Below the pieces are notes generated by a model that searched no databases, was not told where the DNA came from, and saw only the letters and a list, made by a program, of their open reading frames with translations. A stretch of DNA of 35,094 bases from a virus, in IMG/VR virus record IMGVR_UViG_3300022072_000058, positions 1 to 35,094 of that record. The stretch is one strand, 5' to 3'. Shown here one piece after another: positions 10,312 to 35,094 of the stretch. A program made the translations under genes and the position numbers. How positions within the stretch are numbered: position 1 is the stretch's first letter; each line of letters starts with the position of its first letter.

Positions 10312-11074
10312 TGTTTATATTGTTTTCGTATCATTTTAGCTTCTAGTTCATTCTTTTCTTTTTCAAACGTTAGGAATGTTAGGCATTGGTGGAGGGGGAG
10401 TGTCGTAACTTCATCAAATCTTCTGACATCTCCCTTAGCAAGCGCATAGATACTTTGATACCATCCCCACTTTTTTCCAAAGCCATCCTCACTTGAGACG
10501 TTATATCTTCCCTCTGAAGAGTCTTCTCCATAAAGTTCAGAGTAGTCGCTGATAACTCGATCCCTAAATTGTAAAAAAAAAGCGTACAACTCATCACTAC
10601 ACTCAAAGGCATCTCCTTCATCAATTCATTTATCTCATCACTAGGCTCATATGGAGCTATAGTATAACGCTCTTTTGACCTAAAGTTTACTGGGCGATAC
10701 AATACAGCCATAGCCTTATGCATATCATCCCAATTACCGAAGTAATTCTCTACATCAATATATTCGCCCAAAGACATATCATCCAGTTTCGGAATGAATC
10801 CCATATCAACATCTAGCAGTTTGAAGTGGCGAATAAGATCATAATCCTTCTCAAAAGCCATTTTAAGCACTCCTAAGAGCCTTTCTATGTCTCGGTAAGG
10901 TATCTTATCCACTAGGTCGTATTCGATGCCGCAAAACGCCTCTATGAGCTTCTTATTGATAAACTCTGCATCCTTTACCTCGTCTTTACCCTTTATTGCG
11001 CCCAAATAATATTGGTACTGCCCTAAGGATATCTCTTCCAGACTGTCTGGTACGATTAGCTTTAATTCTTCCAT
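10308..11074 (-). CDS. tail assembly chaperone, -1 frameshift product (gpGT-like)
   Basis: Predicted 255-aa fusion: residues 1-167 of the chaperone frame, then -1 slippage and 88 residues ending at the stop at 10308. The joined sequence reads SCTLFF then LQFRDRVISDY. The extension contains KWGWYQSIYALAKGDVRRFD and a charged KEKNELEAKMIRKQ tail, like C-terminal parts of other tail chaperone fusions. The extension frame has no convincing ATG of its own, which argues for frameshifting and against an independent gene. Expression level relative to the short form cannot be read from sequence. Confidence 0.7.
10379..11074 (-). CDS. tail assembly chaperone, unshifted form (gpG-like)
   Basis: A 231-aa mostly helical protein, first gene after the AT-rich element. 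At codons 165-168 the reading frame crosses a run of nine T (CTT TTT TTT TAC). A second open frame in the -1 register starts there and continues past this gene's stop, overlapping it by nearly 200 bases. This matches the lambda G/GT arrangement, in which the two products act as chaperones on the tape measure during tail assembly and do not remain in the virion. The pairing supports the call more than the sequence of either part alone. Confidence 0.7.
   Translation of the reverse strand: MEELKLIVPDSLEEISLGQYQYYLGAIKGKDEVKDAEFINKKLIEAFCGIEYDLVDKIPYRDIERLLGVLKMAFEKDYDLIRHFKLLDVDMGFIPKLDDMSLGEYIDVENYFGNWDDMHKAMAVLYRPVNFRSKERYTIAPYEPSDEINELMKEMPLSVVMSCTLFFYNLGIELSATTLNFMEKTLQREDITSQVRMALEKSGDGIKVSMRLLREMSEDLMKLRHSPSTNA
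10573..10581 (-). other. slippery T9 site for -1 frameshift
   Basis: Nine consecutive T on the minus strand, in zero frame read as C TTT TTT TTT AC. This provides a T TTT TTT heptamer on which both tRNAs can re-pair after a -1 slip. It lies exactly at the start of the overlapping -1 frame. I did not find a clear downstream pseudoknot by eye. Confidence 0.7.
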
Positions 11075-11112
11075 TGTTATATTAACTGTGTTTAAGGTTT
11101 ATGTACTGAAGG

Positions 11113-11282
11113 GAATCTCCAACTGATAGATTGACACCTCTATACATAAAGTATGTATATATATTATACACAATAGTGTATATATACTGTATACTTGTAT
11201 ACTGTATGTAAAATATATATAAACCCTTAGTTATAGTATATATACTATTATATATATATGTGACAAAATGACACTTGGAGAT
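11113..11282. promoter_or_regulatory. AT-rich palindromic element before the late operon
   Basis: A non-coding stretch upstream of the tail chaperone. Eight-base inverted arms ATCTCCAA (11115-11122) and TTGGAGAT (11275-11282) enclose about 150 bp of nearly pure A/T. Inside are three dyads: TATACATA-aag-TATGTATA (11141-11159), TATACAC-aata-GTGTATA (11165-11182) and a perfect 16-bp palindrome ATAGTATATATACTAT (11233-11248). At 11261-11281 is a 21-bp motif shared with 23832-23852. Likely a control region for late genes or an easily melted origin-type sequence. No host-type promoter is visible in it. Confidence 0.55.
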
Positions 11283-11286
11283 GTGT

Positions 11287-11610
11287 CTATTTATTGTTGT
11301 CATAGTAGTGACAGTAGAATTCATAGATTTTTAAGTTAGCCTCCTGCTGGGTATAGGTTTTTGGCGATAAAGCTATTATTCCATTATTGTCGACAAATAT
11401 CTTGACTAAGCCATTCTCGTAAGGATTCTTAATCTTATTCACATTAACTTTGTACTTTTCTTTACCTGATGTCCTCCATTCTGTATCCAGATACTCTTCG
11501 CCTAAATTTATATGTATTTTAATGCCATTAGACAAACACCAATGCATACACTTATCCTGATCTTCCCTGTACATAGGTATACCAATCATCTTATTCCGCT
11601 TCTTAGCCAT
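11287..11610 (-). CDS. hypothetical 107-aa phage protein
   Basis: Starts MAKKRNKMIGIPMYREDQDK at ATG 11610 and ends with TAG at 11287. A TTG six bases upstream is in frame but falls inside the promoter. The ATG lies only 3 bases beyond the -7 box, so the mRNA would have little or no leader. The protein is small and mixed alpha/beta with Cys/His near residues 20-23 (KCMHWC) and an aromatic C-terminus. It stands alone between a promoter and the AT-rich element, a position that suits a regulator of late genes. No family recognised. Confidence 0.65.
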   Translation of the reverse strand: MAKKRNKMIGIPMYREDQDKCMHWCLSNGIKIHINLGEEYLDTEWRTSGKEKYKVNVNKIKNPYENGLVKIFVDNNGIIALSPKTYTQQEANLKIYEFYCHYYDNNK

Positions 11611-11613
11611 ACA

Positions 11614-11644
11614 CAAATATAGTTAATTGCAGTCACACTAGCAA
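11614..11644 (-). promoter_or_regulatory. Bacteroidota-type promoter P11.6
   Basis: On the minus strand TTG (11644-11642), 20 bases, then TATATTTG (11621-11614), matching the TTG-N19/20-TANNTTTG consensus of Bacteroidota primary sigma factor. The start point expected a few bases downstream coincides with ATG 11610. A CAGTTGG motif (11655-11661, plus strand) sits immediately upstream. Confidence 0.7.
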
Positions 11645-11774
11645 ATGCGTTTGTCAGTTGGAAACTAAGTCTTGTGTAGAGAGTAGGGTAATAAGGTATA
11701 CTACGATACTTTTCCGTCAGAGTTGCCATCTAAGCCACTTAAATTGCTTCATCTATACCAATATACCACCTAAT

Positions 11775-13979: not shown

Positions 13980-14009
13980 CAAATGTAGCATAATTTTTCC
14001 AACTGCCAA
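13980..14009 (-). promoter_or_regulatory. Bacteroidota-type promoter P14.0
   Basis: TTG (14009-14007), 19 bases, TACATTTG (13987-13980): a full match to the Bacteroidota consensus. The -33 region reads TTTGGCAGTTGGAAAA, shared with P25.06. The expected start lies near 13974, giving a leader of about 30 bases, A/T-rich without a Shine-Dalgarno sequence. Confidence 0.8.
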
Positions 14010-15502: not shown

Positions 15503-15530
15503 TGTGTTTCCTTTTATATGTTTAACAGGT

Positions 15531-15560
15531 GCAATATATAACCTTTTTTTGAACTACCAA
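15531..15560 (-). promoter_or_regulatory. Bacteroidota-type promoter P15.5 (weaker match)
   Basis: TTG (15560-15558), 19 bases, TATATTGC (15538-15531). The -7 box differs from TANNTTTG in the last bases. The -33 region TTTTGGTAGTTCAAAAA resembles those of P14.0 and P25.06. It lies directly after a terminator and before the WYL_2-like gene. Confidence 0.6.
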
Positions 15561-15575
15561 AATAATTTAAACAAA

Positions 15576-15605
15576 AAACCCCCAGAAGACAAAAACTAGG
15601 GGTTT
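15576..15605 (-). terminator. terminator after the terminase unit
   Basis: Seven-base stem AAACCCC/GGGGTTT (15599-15605 with 15576-15582), loop of 16 bases, followed on the minus strand by a T-run interrupted once. It lies about 85 bases beyond the large terminase stop and just before promoter P15.5. Confidence 0.75.
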
Positions 15606-15689
15606 AATGATAATTAACCAAAATTAAATCTATGAAACAAAATTTATTACTCAAATATAAAAATATATCTCAATATAGCAAAACTTTTT

Positions 15690-16901
15690 TTACTTTATTA
15701 CATACATACCTTTTGGATTTGTTCTAAGTAGCAGATACTCAATAGCATACCTCATTGAATCTACTCCGTGATTATAGGCATCTCTAGGCTTTATACCCCT
15801 AACATCCCAAACATAGTTGTTAAATTCTTTGACTAGGTTTTCGCCATCTAAGTTTATATTGTAGTCCTGCATAAGAGCTATACCCGCTAGGATAGAACCT
15901 TTCTTCTTTACTGTTGGCGTTACATTAAGACCCCTAGAATTGAGTTCAGCAATCAGCCTAGGCTCACTACTATCACAGACAATAAGTTGCTTACCAGCGT
16001 GCCTTTGACATAATTCATATATGTTAGACGTTACTAGACCCTTTTTATAGAACATCTCCTTAACCCAAATAATCTTACGCTGCTTATCTATAGAAACCTT
16101 AGTAAGTACGCTCTCGTCCCTACTAAATCCTATATCTAGTCCATAGCAGGTGAGTTGCATCTCTTCATTAAATCTACCTATTTGCCAATCATCAAACACA
16201 ACGCCTTCAGCCTTCTGTAGCCAGCCTCCCAGTATCTGGTGCTTATATTTATCTGGTCTACGTATTTTCATATCCTCTACCTGCTTAACAAACGACTCCG
16301 ATAGATTGTCGATGTTATCTCTGTAGTCGGTATGTATATAAGTAACATTATCTTTAGTGCCGTTAAATCCATCTGGAATACCTCTGTTCTGGAAGAACCT
16401 CTGGTATATCCAATGCTCCTTTGTAGTTGGGTTTAAGATTAACAGCACTCTGTTTCTTACCCCTCTAGCTCGTATAGAATAATCGATCTTATCAAAGCTC
16501 TCTTCATCTAGCAGCTCCTCCGCTTCATCCAGTACAAATGTATTTATACCACTAATAGATTTAAGTTTGGCGGTCTGGTCACCAGAAGCTGTCTTAATCC
16601 CAGAGAAATAAATGAAGCTATCTGTATGATTATTCTTTATATCGTTCTTTGTGATAGTGAAGCTGTCCTGCGCTCCCATCATCTCAATCTTATCGTTAAA
16701 TTCAGGGATAATAGACATAGAAGCAGAACTCATAGTATATCGAGTAAACAATATACCATTGCCTTCTTCATAGGTTAGTAGATTAAGAAAAAGGGTTGCG
16801 GCATATGATTTACCAGAACCCCTTCCACCTGTAATTACAAAGTATCTACTGTCGCTATTAAAAAGGGATTGATATTTGGGATGAAGCTGTATGCTTTGCA
16901 T
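15690..16901 (-). CDS. terL: terminase large subunit
   Basis: A 403-aa DNA-packaging motor of the PBSX/Terminase_3 type. ATPase: Walker A TGGRGSGKS at residues 24-32, Walker B TFVLDEAE with D125 and E126, coupling motif LILNPT near 154-159. Nuclease: acidic residues D256 (YGLDIGFS), D310 (IVCDSSEP) and D381 (HGVDSMRYA), the three-Asp RNase H-like site. It cuts concatemeric DNA and pumps it into the prohead through the portal. The start at ATG 16901 overlaps the end of an HNH gene by 44 bases. The sequence is intact. Confidence 0.95.
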   Translation of the reverse strand: MQSIQLHPKYQSLFNSDSRYFVITGGRGSGKSYAATLFLNLLTYEEGNGILFTRYTMSSASMSIIPEFNDKIEMMGAQDSFTITKNDIKNNHTDSFIYFSGIKTASGDQTAKLKSISGINTFVLDEAEELLDEESFDKIDYSIRARGVRNRVLLILNPTTKEHWIYQRFFQNRGIPDGFNGTKDNVTYIHTDYRDNIDNLSESFVKQVEDMKIRRPDKYKHQILGGWLQKAEGVVFDDWQIGRFNEEMQLTCYGLDIGFSRDESVLTKVSIDKQRKIIWVKEMFYKKGLVTSNIYELCQRHAGKQLIVCDSSEPRLIAELNSRGLNVTPTVKKKGSILAGIALMQDYNINLDGENLVKEFNNYVWDVRGIKPRDAYNHGVDSMRYAIEYLLLRTNPKGMYVIK

Positions 16902-17373
16902 TCTTATATTTTTTTATTATATAAATTAAGTTACCTTGACTTATCTTATAACGCCTATATGTTTTCTTTTGACCAAACACTAAGTAGTGGTTGTATATTT
17001 CATCATACAAATGCTTATAGGTTCCTGCCTTTACATATTTATTATTACGAATGCAATCCCTAGCGTTATCTTTATTAGTACCTAAGTATAAGTTTTTGTA
17101 TGAGTTATCACTAGGCTGATCATTCCTATGTAGAACCATCAAACCTTTGGTAAACAGTTTTTCTCCAACTCGACAAAACATAATGAATCTATGTCCTAAA
17201 ATTATTAGAGGTTTATTTTTATATTTTATTCCGAAAACTGCGTATCCGCTTCGATAAGATAATTTTTGCAAGGAACCATCTGGCTTAAATATTATTCCAG
17301 AATCATCACATCTGTAGCCCCTATTGTATGCCTCGATTATAACTTTATTTGATTGGCTTAATTGTTTCTCCAT
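16858..17373 (-). CDS. HNH endonuclease between the terminase subunits
   Basis: A 171-aa protein. HNH_3-type motif: H61-R62 in LGHRFIMF, then VLHRND with H82, N90 and NLYLGTNKDNARD with N94 and N103. The C-terminal part (KKTYRRYKISQGNLIYIIKK) looks like a DNA-binding helix-turn-helix common in homing endonucleases. Its ATG lies inside a small upstream frame and its last 44 bases overlap the terL start. It may be a mobile homing enzyme or a packaging-associated HNH nuclease; HNH genes next to terminase genes are known in many cos phages. Confidence 0.82.
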   Translation of the reverse strand: MEKQLSQSNKVIIEAYNRGYRCDDSGIIFKPDGSLQKLSYRSGYAVFGIKYKNKPLIILGHRFIMFCRVGEKLFTKGLMVLHRNDQPSDNSYKNLYLGTNKDNARDCIRNNKYVKAGTYKHLYDEIYNHYLVFGQKKTYRRYKISQGNLIYIIKKYKNAKHTASSQISIPF

Positions 17374-17902: not shown

Positions 17903-18442
17903 CTACTGTTCTAATTGTTCTAATTCAGCTATAAAAGTCTTAGCACAAGCAAGACTATTTCTTTTTAAGATCAAACCTTTTAGGTGTTGCAACCTAACAT
18001 TTGCCTTAATATACTTTTCTCTGTATTCGCCAGAATTTTCAACCTCATCTTTAAGTTTGTCTAAATCCGACTGTAGGGAAGCATTCTTAATAAGCAGATC
18101 AAGATAACTACGGTTCTTAACCTTTTCCTTTTGTATATTTTCCTTTATAGGAGTTACTTCGCTTAATATTTTATTATAAACCCTTATGTAAAACTTCTCG
18201 TTCCAAGAATCTAAATTGCTAAACACTTTCCTTAAGGAATGCAAAACAGTTGCGTGATCCTGTTCTAACGTCTCGCCTATAGCACAAAGACTAAGCGGAG
18301 TAACCTCCCTGCATATTCCATAATATAAAGACCTAGCATAAACGTATTCTCTACTTCTTATGTGTTTCCCTTTAGACGTTCTCTCATCTAAATTTATTTG
18401 TAATTCTTCCTCTATTCTATTCCGTATCTCCTTCGCTAACAT
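17903..18442 (-). CDS. DnaA domain IV-like DNA-binding protein
   Basis: A 179-aa protein. Residues 30-75 resemble the DnaA C-terminal helix-turn-helix: SREYVYARSLYYGICREVTP, then SLCAIGETLEQDHATVLHSL, with the D-H-x-T-V...H signature (D62, H63, T65, V66, H68) that reads DnaA boxes. The ATPase domain of DnaA is absent. The C-terminal 90 residues form a long charged coiled coil. It may bind host or phage origin sequences to steer replication, or act as a transcription regulator. Member of the P19.7 unit. Confidence 0.75.
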   Translation of the reverse strand: MLAKEIRNRIEEELQINLDERTSKGKHIRSREYVYARSLYYGICREVTPLSLCAIGETLEQDHATVLHSLRKVFSNLDSWNEKFYIRVYNKILSEVTPIKENIQKEKVKNRSYLDLLIKNASLQSDLDKLKDEVENSGEYREKYIKANVRLQHLKGLILKRNSLACAKTFIAELEQLEQ

Positions 18443-20960: not shown

Positions 20961-21509
20961 CTATTTTGTATATTTATTATTCTTAGCTTCTAAGTACTCT
21001 TTCCACTCTTTCTCAAAAGCTCTTCTTACTTTCATCTTTCCATTCTTTAGAGTTCCAAATATAGAACTCAAACTTATTCTAGTTACAGAGGATATTGCTC
21101 TCATACTAAGTTGCTTCTTAAAATGTATTTCCCACAACTTCTTATCATACCAGTACCAACTATTTACCATTTCTTCTATTCCGCCAACTAGATTCTCAAA
21201 ACTATCCTCATACTCATATACATCAAATAGACTGTCTGGCGATACATTACTTTCGCTGAAATCTCCATCTATCTTCCACTTATGTACTTTAGATAGGAAT
21301 AAATTCCTAAGGGTAACATATACATAGAAGCTATTAAGCTCCTTATCATTATACATAATCCTTTCTGGATCGTCTATGTATTTAACTAATCGAACATACA
21401 TTGACTGTACTATCTCGTTAGCCTCTTCTTCATTGCATCCAAAGGACATAGCCATATGAATCCAATCCGAATGCTTATCAGCAAGTCTATCAATTAATCG
21501 TTCCACCAA
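20961..21509 (-). CDS. sigma-70-like transcription factor
   Basis: A 182-aa protein. Residues 10-70 resemble sigma region 2 (SDWIHMAMSFGCNEEEANEI then VQSMYVRLV and NSFYVYVTLRNLF), and residues 125-165 an HTH like region 4 (QLSMRAISSVTRISLSSIFG). I recognise it as the small sigma-like group common in Bacteroidota phages. It could redirect host polymerase to phage promoters lacking the host consensus, such as the late region. No in-frame ATG exists upstream, so it starts at TTG 21509 or GTG 21506. Confidence 0.65.
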   Translation of the reverse strand: MVERLIDRLADKHSDWIHMAMSFGCNEEEANEIVQSMYVRLVKYIDDPERIMYNDKELNSFYVYVTLRNLFLSKVHKWKIDGDFSESNVSPDSLFDVYEYEDSFENLVGGIEEMVNSWYWYDKKLWEIHFKKQLSMRAISSVTRISLSSIFGTLKNGKMKVRRAFEKEWKEYLEAKNNKYTK

Positions 21510-21662: not shown

Positions 21663-22061
21663 TTATGTTGTTTTATATTGTTTTATTGTTGCTACAATCC
21701 TAGCGTCCTCTTTATCAATACCTCCGAATAAAGAAGTAATCTTCACAACCGTATCTGTATCGTCAGTCTCAATGCATCCAGTCTCCACTAGAGCATCCTG
21801 AAAGAACTTATCAGCTACAGCTATAACATTCATTAAATCTCTCTTTCTTTTATCTGGCGCATAGTAGACGTAATCTATCTCTACCTGTCCTAAAATAGAA
21901 AAGTCGAGGTTTCCCCCGACTTGCTCTTTGAACTTCTTCTTTATGTTGTTACTTACCTGATAGTGCCAGTTACGGTACTGGTTAAGATTAAGATACCTCT
22001 TCTTCTTACCAGATTTTATCCAGATCGGTAACGTTATTTGTATGTCCTGTACGGATTTCAT
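21663..22061 (-). CDS. rusA: RusA-family Holliday junction resolvase
   Basis: A 132-aa protein with the RusA pattern: YVYYAPDKRKRDLMNV (D70, D75), VADKFFQDALVETG (D89) and CIETDDTDTVV (D100, D101). RusA enzymes are dimers that cut four-way DNA junctions, here probably clearing branches before packaging. The N-terminus overlaps the primase-helicase gene by 56 bases. The acidic catalytic residues look intact. Confidence 0.82.
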   Translation of the reverse strand: MKSVQDIQITLPIWIKSGKKKRYLNLNQYRNWHYQVSNNIKKKFKEQVGGNLDFSILGQVEIDYVYYAPDKRKRDLMNVIAVADKFFQDALVETGCIETDDTDTVVKITSLFGGIDKEDARIVATIKQYKTT

Positions 22062-23763
22062 CTACTTTTGTGAATGGTGTTTTACCGTTAAAATAATACC
22101 TCTGCTCCTTCATACTGAATGTTATGTTAGTTAATTCCTGTGGTGTACCCACTAATTTCTGTTTCTTTATCTTCTGTGAACCAAAGGTAACTAAAGTCGA
22201 GTTAAAAACCAAAGCCCTGTCTGGACGCCATATAAACATTACATTGTCAGCCTTGTCGGCAAATGTACCTCCACCCTTTATTCTATTGACGTCAGGCTTA
22301 ATATAACGACCATCTTCAGTCTTAGTTGGCGTAACCTGATGCGCCACTAAATGTACTGATATTTTCTGATCTAATGCAAATCTTTTTAGTTCTGACATAA
22401 ACCTAGAGATATATAAATCCTCTCTTTCTCCAGATCGGAGCTTATGTTGAATTGTGTTATAAGGGTCTATGATTAAACTTCTAATACCTTTTGTTTTTAC
22501 TAAATATTTTGCTCTCTCAAATATAGCACTAAGCTCAAAATTCTTCTTTGGATATATCACATAGAAATGTTTCTTTACAAAATCCATTGCAGCTTTATAC
22601 TCTTCTATACTCATCTGTATGTTCTTGTGATGAGGGTCTGCTGAACGACCAATATACATTTCAATTATATCGTTAAAGAAGTCATTCATTGGCATATTCT
22701 CTGGAGAAAATATAGCAAACTTCCACCCATCCATAGCTGCTTTTAAGGTCGCCAATTGGTTTATAAATAGAGACTTTCCTTCGTTCTGATAGCCAGTCCA
22801 AATATTCACCTCACCATTTCGCCACGTCCAAGCCCTATCAACCTCTGGAATATAGGTTGTAGTTCCTCTCTCTTGACCATTATAAAATCCATCAATCATA
22901 GATTCAGACACATCATCTATACTGAATACACCCTCTATTTTTGGATTTGAGGCTGATTTAAGACGGTTTCTCAAACTTTCTACACCTTCGTTCATTAGAA
23001 CCTCATTAGCGTCCTTAAAAGGCTTTAAATCGACTAATAAGCATTTCTCTGCGCCAAAACGTCTAACCAGCTCATCTTTTAGATTCCTACCGTTCTCATC
23101 CTCATCAGTAGCAATGTATATTCTTTTCGCCTCTTCAAATACGTCATAGCAGTTGCTTATGCACTCTAGTTTCTTATCTACATTTTTATCATTACTGTTT
23201 GGCGCACCCATATTAACAGATGTGTGTGACTCAATTCCTGTAACCTCCCAAGACATAGAATCCATTTCGCCTTCACAAATAACAATAGTATCAGCTCCTT
23301 TACAACGATCATAATTGTAGATTACTGGTTCAGCATCTTTTGACTGTGTAAAGAACTTATTGTTTAATCCTCTAGTTTTATAATTAACAATTTTACCATT
23401 CTTAAAATAAGGCAATAGAATGTTCTTGTTATCCTTTGTAGACACTATTTTGTTAGCGTCAATAACTTCGTTTGTTATACCCCGATCTAAAAGAAACTTT
23501 CTACCCTCTGCGGTAAGTTTTTTCATATTCTTTTTTTCTGGCGATGTGTAAGATTTTATACTCATAATCTTCTCCTGTGTTTTGTTTATACTACCAGCCC
23601 AACCACATTTATGGCAATTAAATACTCCTTTCGCCTGATTAACAGATAAGCATCTGTCTCTAAAATTCTCTTTACCTAGCTTTACGCAATTAGGACATTG
23701 AACTTTTTGGTCGCTGTTAGTGTTGTGTTTAATCTCTATTCCTAAGTCTATAAAATTCTCCAT
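22006..23763 (-). CDS. bifunctional primase-helicase (T7 gp4 type)
   Basis: A 585-aa replication protein. Domains in order: zinc finger with C23/C26 (CPNC) and C50/C53 (CHKC); TOPRIM primase core with E164 (CEGEMDSM) and D220/D222 (ATDEDENG); DnaB-family helicase with Walker A GYQNEGKS (324-331), Walker B LIIDPYN (430-436) and HLVAHQ (471-476). It should unwind the fork and prime lagging-strand synthesis. No DNA polymerase gene is visible in the window, so the host enzyme is probably used. The AT-rich tract and a 21-bp motif lie just upstream. Confidence 0.92.
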   Translation of the reverse strand: MENFIDLGIEIKHNTNSDQKVQCPNCVKLGKENFRDRCLSVNQAKGVFNCHKCGWAGSINKTQEKIMSIKSYTSPEKKNMKKLTAEGRKFLLDRGITNEVIDANKIVSTKDNKNILLPYFKNGKIVNYKTRGLNNKFFTQSKDAEPVIYNYDRCKGADTIVICEGEMDSMSWEVTGIESHTSVNMGAPNSNDKNVDKKLECISNCYDVFEEAKRIYIATDEDENGRNLKDELVRRFGAEKCLLVDLKPFKDANEVLMNEGVESLRNRLKSASNPKIEGVFSIDDVSESMIDGFYNGQERGTTTYIPEVDRAWTWRNGEVNIWTGYQNEGKSLFINQLATLKAAMDGWKFAIFSPENMPMNDFFNDIIEMYIGRSADPHHKNIQMSIEEYKAAMDFVKKHFYVIYPKKNFELSAIFERAKYLVKTKGIRSLIIDPYNTIQHKLRSGEREDLYISRFMSELKRFALDQKISVHLVAHQVTPTKTEDGRYIKPDVNRIKGGGTFADKADNVMFIWRPDRALVFNSTLVTFGSQKIKKQKLVGTPQELTNITFSMKEQRYYFNGKTPFTKVDEIRTGHTNNVTDLDKIW

Positions 23764-23852
23764 TATGTATAATATTATTATATATATTATTATATATTAT
23801 ATATTTATTATATATACTATATACTATGATATGACAATTTGACAGTTGGAGA
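23764..23852. promoter_or_regulatory. AT-rich tract with shared 21-bp motif before the primase-helicase
   Basis: About 65 bp of almost pure A/T (23764-23828), then at 23832-23852 TGACAA-TT-TGACA-G-TTGGAGA, which differs in only three positions from 11261-11281. The motif covers the last codons of the winged-helix gene. Candidate control site or origin for the replication unit; no host-type promoter box is seen here. Confidence 0.5.
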
Positions 23853-24113
23853 AACGTAAATTCTACGATCTTTTCCGTACCGTCCTGTCGAGTTTGTTAC
23901 CCTTTTTATTAAGTTTTTTTCTTCCAGCTTATTTAAAACTCTGTACAAGGTTCTTTCGTGAATACCCAAAGATGTAGACAGATGCTCCGTTGAAGCATAG
24001 CAGTAATCTTTCCTTGTTAGTGAAGCTAGGTATGATAATACAGCAGATTCATTTAGGCTTAAATCTAATTCAGTAATATCTTTCTTTATTGTTACAAATT
24101 TAGTTTTACTCAT
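23817..24113 (-). CDS. winged-helix DNA-binding protein
   Basis: A 98-aa protein from ATG 24113 (MSKTKFVTIKKDI); a GTG at 24164 is in frame but adds a doubtful stretch. The wHTH reads LNESAVLSYLASLTRKDYCY, then ASTEHLSTSLGIHERTLYRV and LNKLEEKNLIKRV. The pattern resembles replication-initiator or MarR/GntR-like winged helices. It is upstream of the primase-helicase, so it may load it at an origin or regulate transcription. Its own 3' end carries the 21-bp motif. Confidence 0.75.
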   Translation of the reverse strand: MSKTKFVTIKKDITELDLSLNESAVLSYLASLTRKDYCYASTEHLSTSLGIHERTLYRVLNKLEEKNLIKRVTNSTGRYGKDRRIYVSPTVKLSYHSI

Positions 24114-24176: not shown

Positions 24177-24458
24177 CTAGAAAGGGAGACCGTCTCCTGC
24201 GCTTACAGGGGCATTATTAGCATTATCATTCTTCTGATCTTTGTCTGACTGATAATCATTTACCCAAACGCTGTGAGTTTTACCCCACTCATTTGCTTCA
24301 CGTAGTTTACCTACTGTAAGGCGAACATACTGCTCCCCATTGTACTCATAGAAGTGTGGCTCTAATTGACTCTTCTTTAACGAAATGTTTATGTAGTACT
24401 CTCCGCTTTGCGTACCGTTTCCTACATAGTTTCTTGGTTTCTGTGTTACTTCACTCAT
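24177..24458 (-). CDS. SSB-like protein with SSB-type C-terminal tail
   Basis: A 93-aa protein with a beta-rich core (GEYYINISLKKSQLEPHFYE and GEQYVRLTVGKLREANEWGK) and a disordered Asn/Asp-rich section ending GDGLPF. The final acidic-hydrophobic LPF resembles the C-terminal tip of bacterial SSB, which recruits partner enzymes. It lies between the ERF annealase and the winged-helix gene. The fold is shorter than full SSB, so this is a likely small single-strand binding protein; not proven. Confidence 0.5.
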   Translation of the reverse strand: MSEVTQKPRNYVGNGTQSGEYYINISLKKSQLEPHFYEYNGEQYVRLTVGKLREANEWGKTHSVWVNDYQSDKDQKNDNANNAPVSAGDGLPF

Positions 24459-25057: not shown

Positions 25058-25088
25058 CAAATATATAATAAAGTTTTCCAACTGCCAA
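25058..25088 (-). promoter_or_regulatory. Bacteroidota-type promoter P25.06
   Basis: TTG (25088-25086), 20 bases, TATATTTG (25065-25058). The -33 section TTTGGCAGTTGGAAAA equals that of P14.0. The ATG of the ERF gene is 5 bases downstream of the -7 box, so the predicted transcript is leaderless or nearly so. Confidence 0.78.
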
Positions 25089-25104: not shown

Positions 25105-25130
25105 AAGAGCCAGTAGTTAAACTGACTCTT
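25105..25130 (-). terminator. terminator at the end of the late/lysis region
   Basis: Ten-base stem (25105-25114 with 25121-25130, including a G-T pair) with a six-base loop, followed on the minus strand by six T. It separates the lysis genes from promoter P25.06. The gap 25131-25223 holds nothing further that I can identify. Confidence 0.85.
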
Positions 25131-34824: not shown

Positions 34825-35094
34825 TTAGTTTTGATTGTTTAATCGGTTAAATACTCTGTCTAATGTGTTTTGTGATCTCTGCATTCCGAAATTGTAAATT
34901 GGTTTCTTTTCGGTAGCAGCTTCTGGATTGTGGTTAATTGCTTCAGCAGCAGGTTCAGCAGAAAGTTTTTCCATTTTAGAAGATAATTCTTCTAGCTCTC
35001 TTTTGTAACCCATTTCGCTATCTAACATTTTTGCCATTTCAGCCATTTTAGCCTCCATTTCAGCAATCTTAGCTGCAAACGCTTCTTCAGTAAA
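34825..35094 (-). CDS. scaffold-like acidic protein, C-terminal part
   Basis: The 3' part of the gene begun at 383-1, ending with TAA at 34825, seven bases before the capsid gene start. Contains the second copy of the terminal repeat. The C-terminal section has the coiled coil (MEAKMAEMAKMLDSEMGYKR) and a short basic NFGMQRSQNTLDRVFNRL tail, which could contact the capsid protein. In this copy codon 35071-35073 region reads Ala where the left copy reads Ser. Confidence 0.7.
   Translation of the reverse strand, partial: FTEEAFAAKIAEMEAKMAEMAKMLDSEMGYKRELEELSSKMEKLSAEPAAEAINHNPEAATEKKPIYNFGMQRSQNTLDRVFNRLNNQN
34952..35093. repeat. terminal direct repeat, right copy
   Basis: Matches 4-145 with one mismatch (C at 35073 against A at 125). 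The last base of the window (A at 35094) departs from the left copy (C at 146). Joining the two copies gives one open reading frame. Confidence 0.95.

Follow-up and report, generated by a model that had tools for sequence, protein, structure and literature searches.

The 21-bp motif TGACAA-NN-TGACA-N-TTGGAGA is probably the operator of a phage-wide regulon, which a 98-aa winged-helix protein encoded at 23817-24113 (minus strand) would read and which would serve as an early/late switch. We base this on the positions and spacing of the sites, on their conservation and concerted variation in related phages, and on the match between altered sites and an arginine-to-serine replacement (R58S) in the recognition helix of the protein.

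Within the window, i.e., the whole 35,094-nucleotide stretch of viral DNA analyzed, the motif occurs as two exact copies at 23832-23852 (site A) and 11261-11281 (site B), as the first-pass annotation had reported. A search with ≤3 mismatches returned 3 matches, against a mean of 0.05 and a maximum of 1 in 100 dinucleotide-preserving shuffles of the window; the third match is inverted and lies at 11116-11136 (site C). Since all listed genes are on the minus strand, the order in gene direction is TCTCCAA-N-TGTCA-NN-TTGTCA, then an AT tract, then a gene. The two copies had been described as similarly oriented motifs, each placed before an AT-rich tract and a gene, and in gene direction this order holds, but the copy at 23832-23852 is coding rather than intergenic: site A (TCTCCAACTGTCAAATTGTCA, minus strand) falls within the winged-helix gene, where it makes up the final codons (SPTVKLS...). 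It is followed by an AT-rich tract (23764-23831, up to 93% AT) that runs from site A to the start codon of the downstream primase-helicase gene (22006-23763, minus strand). Site B (TCTCCAAGTGTCATTTTGTCA, minus strand) is non-coding, lies 5 bp past the stop of the open reading frame (ORF) 11287-11616, and consists of the half-sites TGTC-N5-GTCA with an outer arm TCCAA, at a junction conserved in relatives. Site C (TGTCAATCTATCAGTTGGAGA, minus strand) is inverted relative to B, so that the AT-rich tract between them (11137-11260) is flanked on both sides. The first gene after this tract, at 10379-11074 (minus strand), had been named a tail chaperone, a label that is not supported: its sole match is phrog_32199, a family without assigned function. 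The motif was also considered as an RNA hairpin or terminator and this was rejected: by eye, neither the other copies nor the relatives preserve the weak 5-bp stem found at 11270-11287. Rfam gave no match.

We next turn to the relatives, which were gathered via the primase-helicase and the 10379-11074 gene, with 20 related contigs read whole. The sequence TGYC-N5-GRCA forms the conserved core, and an outer arm, TCCAAS, is found at the end distal to the AT tract. The full pattern was matched 26 times in 21 related contigs, and 23 of these matches were located at the winged-helix/primase junction or before the homologue of the 10379 gene, for an expectation of 0–0.4 matches per genome, and the distance between B and C was 137–155 bp in relatives with both sites clear. 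The motif search in related genomes suggested earlier, for which absence of the motif was to count against the idea, thus found it kept at both places in most relatives. The AT tract behind site A matches that of two relatives at 73/73 and 71/73 bases; in these relatives, 4-fold sites show 77% and 67% identity. At the other locus, the B-C junction of distant relatives contains a terminator together with a short AT stretch, consistent with a border between transcription units.

Given that site A is coding, the motif could in principle reflect coding constraint on the 3' end of the winged-helix gene, with a coincidental match elsewhere, or chance similarity altogether. We regard this as extremely improbable, as only 0.05 matches are expected by chance, site B is non-coding yet conserved, and two relatives (L065 and L066) retain the DNA site despite a frameshift that gives the winged-helix protein a different tail. 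Moreover, winged-helix homologues without site A end before the position of the site (RRIY...), suggesting that the C-terminal tail is largely a read-through of the DNA site. The number of exact half-sites is also far above expectation, with 56 observed and 7.2 expected across 26 contigs.

These half-sites extend the motif well beyond the two operons proposed in the first-pass annotation: the window contains at least 6 copies or half-copies spread across the control regions of this small marine phage, including other promoters, with full inverted repeats at A, B, and C only. Taken with its arm, the half-site reads TKNCAGTTGGA (TKNCA-G-TTGGA), and it is locked to promoters. Specifically, 24 of 26 gene-strand half-sites had TAnnTTTG or TAnnTTGY exactly 10–11 nt downstream (background ~0.1), while such a box was found at 10–11 nt for 0 of 30 opposite-strand half-sites. 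TAnnTTTG is the flavobacterial sigma-A -7 box, and TAnnTTGY a variant of that motif (PMC9723704). At promoters, the half-sites cover the -33 box; these promoters are of the flavobacterial sigma-A type and come after terminators. In the window, a -7 box at the fixed spacing from TTTG was found at sites D and F and at the promoter beside site G. Site D (25077-25087, minus strand) is a half-site TGGCAGTTGGA on the -33 box, with a -7 box TATATTTG at 25058-25065 and, directly before the promoter, a terminator-like hairpin with T-run identified by eye (25107-25130, minus strand); this promoter serves the Erf, 24177-24458, and winged-helix genes. Site F (13998-14008, minus strand) has the same half-site sequence, again on the -33 box, with a -7 box TACATTTG at 13980-13987. 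Site G (11652-11662, plus strand; TCCAACTGACA in gene direction) is located upstream of the promoter for ORF 11287-11616, for which the -7 box, identical to that of D, is at 11614-11621. Like site A, site G probably overlaps coding sequence. By eye, an unlisted reading frame of ~47 aa (MATLTEKYRSIPYYPTLYTRLSFQL...) spans ~11595-11740 (minus strand) and overlaps the start of 11287-11616, and a conserved stretch TGTGTAGAGAGTAGG is found beside site G in many relatives.

The paired sites behave differently. The 110 nt adjoining each A and B site contained no recognizable sigma-A -7 box, and this includes the tract behind B in the window. Behind site C, a conserved TACA/G (11102-11105, minus strand) is found 9–12 nt past the half-site in 14 genomes, i.e., at the place of the -7 box of the other sites. 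This box is poor, as would be expected for a promoter that needs help.

The fixed register with promoters could also arise if the motif were a promoter element recognized by a phage-modified polymerase, for instance with the sigma-like protein encoded at 20961-21509 (minus strand), and not by the winged-helix protein. The half-site does occupy the -33 region at fixed spacing, and a sigma-like protein is encoded, although its matches are weak (Sigma70_r2, E 0.15; phrog_1740, E 0.037); a clearer candidate is encoded close to the terminase of a related phage, Nonlabens phage P12024L. We nevertheless consider this reading improbable: sites are found in both orientations and as palindromes, and the host-type -33 TTTG and TAnnTTTG boxes are retained. 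In addition, the sigma-like protein is 87% identical both in a phage with altered sites (G002) and in one that keeps Arg58 (G004), so that its divergence does not track site change, while that of the winged-helix protein does.

The winged-helix protein is a plausible DNA-binding reader. It matches Pfam HTH_36 (PF13730) with 41.2 bits for a curated cut-off of 25, and its AlphaFold2 model (mean pLDDT 83.7) places R58 (codon 23940-23942, minus strand) in the recognition helix formed by residues 53-65. At the sequence level, its matches are to phage replication initiators (phrog_428, 270, and 186), in their DNA-binding part. Among the fold matches of its model are regulators of the MarR family and also initiator domains of plasmid Rep proteins, hence the fold does not decide between a regulator and an initiator.

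Variation among relatives points to a shared reader for the different sites. Non-orthologous sites in the same genome agreed with each other at 0.699 versus 0.664 (sd 0.008; 0 of 5000 shuffles), and removing the three phages with the most variation left the signal in place (p 0.007). This concerted variation was strongest at arm base 10, where G006 and G008 each had C in 5/5 sites. Arm variants in a further phage, G012, looked concerted but were left unused; sites A and B differ there from the other sites.

A further case is a phage represented by contigs G002, G030, and G031, in which the winged-helix protein is 70% identical, compared to 90–92% for the others, while its other replication proteins remain ~87–93% identical. 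There, the recognition helix changes from RTLYR to RTIFS, i.e., R58S, and sites A, B, C, D, F, and G are all of TRCA type instead of GRCA type, with G031 identical to G002 over 7.7 kb and G030, which has B, C, F, and G, tied to G002 only by sample and by ends that overlap by 22 bp within a single gene. In the same phage the AT tract behind A has hardly changed, and Arg58 is kept at 16/16 other winged-helix loci compared. R58S represents a single lineage, whose recognition helix carries further substitutions, and the correspondence has exceptions: site E, degenerate in this lineage, is unchanged; G004 has one TTGCA half-site though its protein retains Arg58; and in L019 site A has decayed yet the Arg is kept. 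Another candidate reader, a DnaA-C-like protein (17903-18442, minus strand), was rejected because it diverges equally where sites did and did not change (73% identity in G002 and G004, 57% in G001). Overall, the concerted site variation and the recognition-helix change accompanied by six changed sites argue that one phage-encoded protein probably reads both of the sites first described, as had been suggested; of the two readers then named, the winged-helix protein is the most likely and the sigma-like protein unlikely.

From these patterns we infer binding, dimerisation, the choice between repression and activation, and timing as follows. Host RNA polymerase would make the winged-helix protein from promoter D, and the protein would bind A, B, and C as a dimer and the half-sites as a monomer or dimer. 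By doing so it would probably repress the promoters with a covered -33 box (D and F), its own promoter D included. At the poor promoter behind C, the protein may instead aid the polymerase and thereby start the structural unit. The paired TGYC-N5-GRCA sites would mark the two AT tracts that split this one-strand genome into two units, replication/packaging and structural, and transcriptional control at the AT tracts themselves is likewise predicted from sequence.

By analogy, such a switch would probably work like that of phi29 p4, an N-hook protein that binds CTTTTT-15 bp-AAAATG (PMC3100819). Both involve a small phage DNA-binding protein, inverted-repeat sites, and AT-rich surroundings, and the half-sites over -33 boxes and the poor box behind C may correspond to the phi29 sites that overlap the -35 of early promoters and lie near a late promoter with a poor -35 (PMC3100819). 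However, the protein here has a winged helix instead of an N-hook, the sites are scattered over the genome whereas those of phi29 are clustered in one region, and here it is half-sites that overlap the -33 boxes of promoters of the flavobacterial TAnnTTTG type, the full inverted repeats being those at A, B, and C; regulation in our case is predicted from sequence. T4 MotA similarly has a box for a phage protein around -30 at a fixed distance from a host-type -10 (PMC2988021), but MotA has a double-wing domain and needs AsiA, and the host -33 TTTG is kept here, the comparison being one of box position alone.

Small phage regulators that act through operators at promoters are already a known kind. 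New details would be the half-sites locked to flavobacterial promoters, the paired sites flanking AT tracts, one of them in the last codons of the regulator, and what appears to be a natural specificity switch. A literature search found no published description of this motif and, to our knowledge, transcription control in phages of marine Flavobacteriia has been little studied. The analysis provides a concrete candidate regulator with a putative and directly testable binding code (Arg58/GRCA versus Ser58/TRCA), a set of promoters probably under its control, and a motif by which this phage family can be recognized in metagenomes.

The two AT tracts may also be replication origins. Taken as the primary function, this would make A and B/C origins at which the winged-helix protein, as an O-like initiator, opens the AT tract and the primase-helicase is loaded, with the promoter half-sites reduced to autoregulation. 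We consider this unlikely as the main explanation, but it has several attractive features. The protein resembles the initiator DNA-binding parts and plasmid Rep domains noted above, and site A lies at the end of the initiator-like gene, beside the 93% AT tract and the primase-helicase gene. A similar arrangement is seen in lambda, where the iteron is an inverted repeat with a 5-bp spacer inside the O gene, next to an AT-rich tract and a downstream replication gene, and where extra iterons add residues to O (PMC7466680). The position of sites B and C on either side of an AT tract recalls the iterons that surround the melting region in origins of phage-inducible chromosomal islands (PICI), in which the origin adjoins the initiator gene as A does here (PMC6092414), and the absence of a sigma-A -7 box behind A and B would fit as well. 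On the other hand, an origin-only role leaves unexplained the half-sites in fixed register with sigma-A promoters. Lambda O has four to six iterons whereas each tract side here has one paired site and no iteron array, the protein lacks the O C-terminal half, and the site family recurs both at promoters and 12.5 kb away. Likewise, PICI origins have iteron sets 3' of rep, while B and C are single paired sites flanking a tract 12.5 kb from the initiator-like gene. Tract A is absent from four relatives (L027, L038, L049, and L055), and third-position GC skew, a gene-specific signal that does not decide on an origin, has no step at A.

The regulator and origin readings can both hold. Under a combined scheme, to which we assign a low probability, a single 98-aa protein would be initiator and master switch at once, using half-sites for promoters, its own included, and paired sites to open two AT origins 12.5 kb apart, one adjoining the site inside its own gene.

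A single DnaA box (TTATACACA) was found in the B-C tract of the window and none in the tracts of relatives, and this candidate was set aside. The AT tracts have no general iteron period; clear 21-bp repeats, AGAGTAACATGATATACACAC in 2.4 copies, are specific to the clade of phage G006 (contig L100, ~2408-2457, in the B-C tract), and other phages carry ACACTATGTGT-like palindromes in their place. The DnaA-C-like protein mentioned above has a DnaA C-terminal DNA-binding domain (Bac_DnaA_C, E 8.6e-12), is fast-evolving, and could bind AT tracts or block host DnaA.

A 142-bp direct repeat at the two ends of the record (1-146 and 34952-35094) indicates that the genome is probably complete and either circular or circularly permuted. 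After the large terminase gene lies an AT-rich gap (15503-15689) with a terminator and a promoter, in which the half-site is good in relatives and degenerate in the window (TGGTAGTTC). The start of the same terminase gene is overlapped by an HNH endonuclease gene (16858-17373, minus strand) that is replaced or strongly diverged in relatives.
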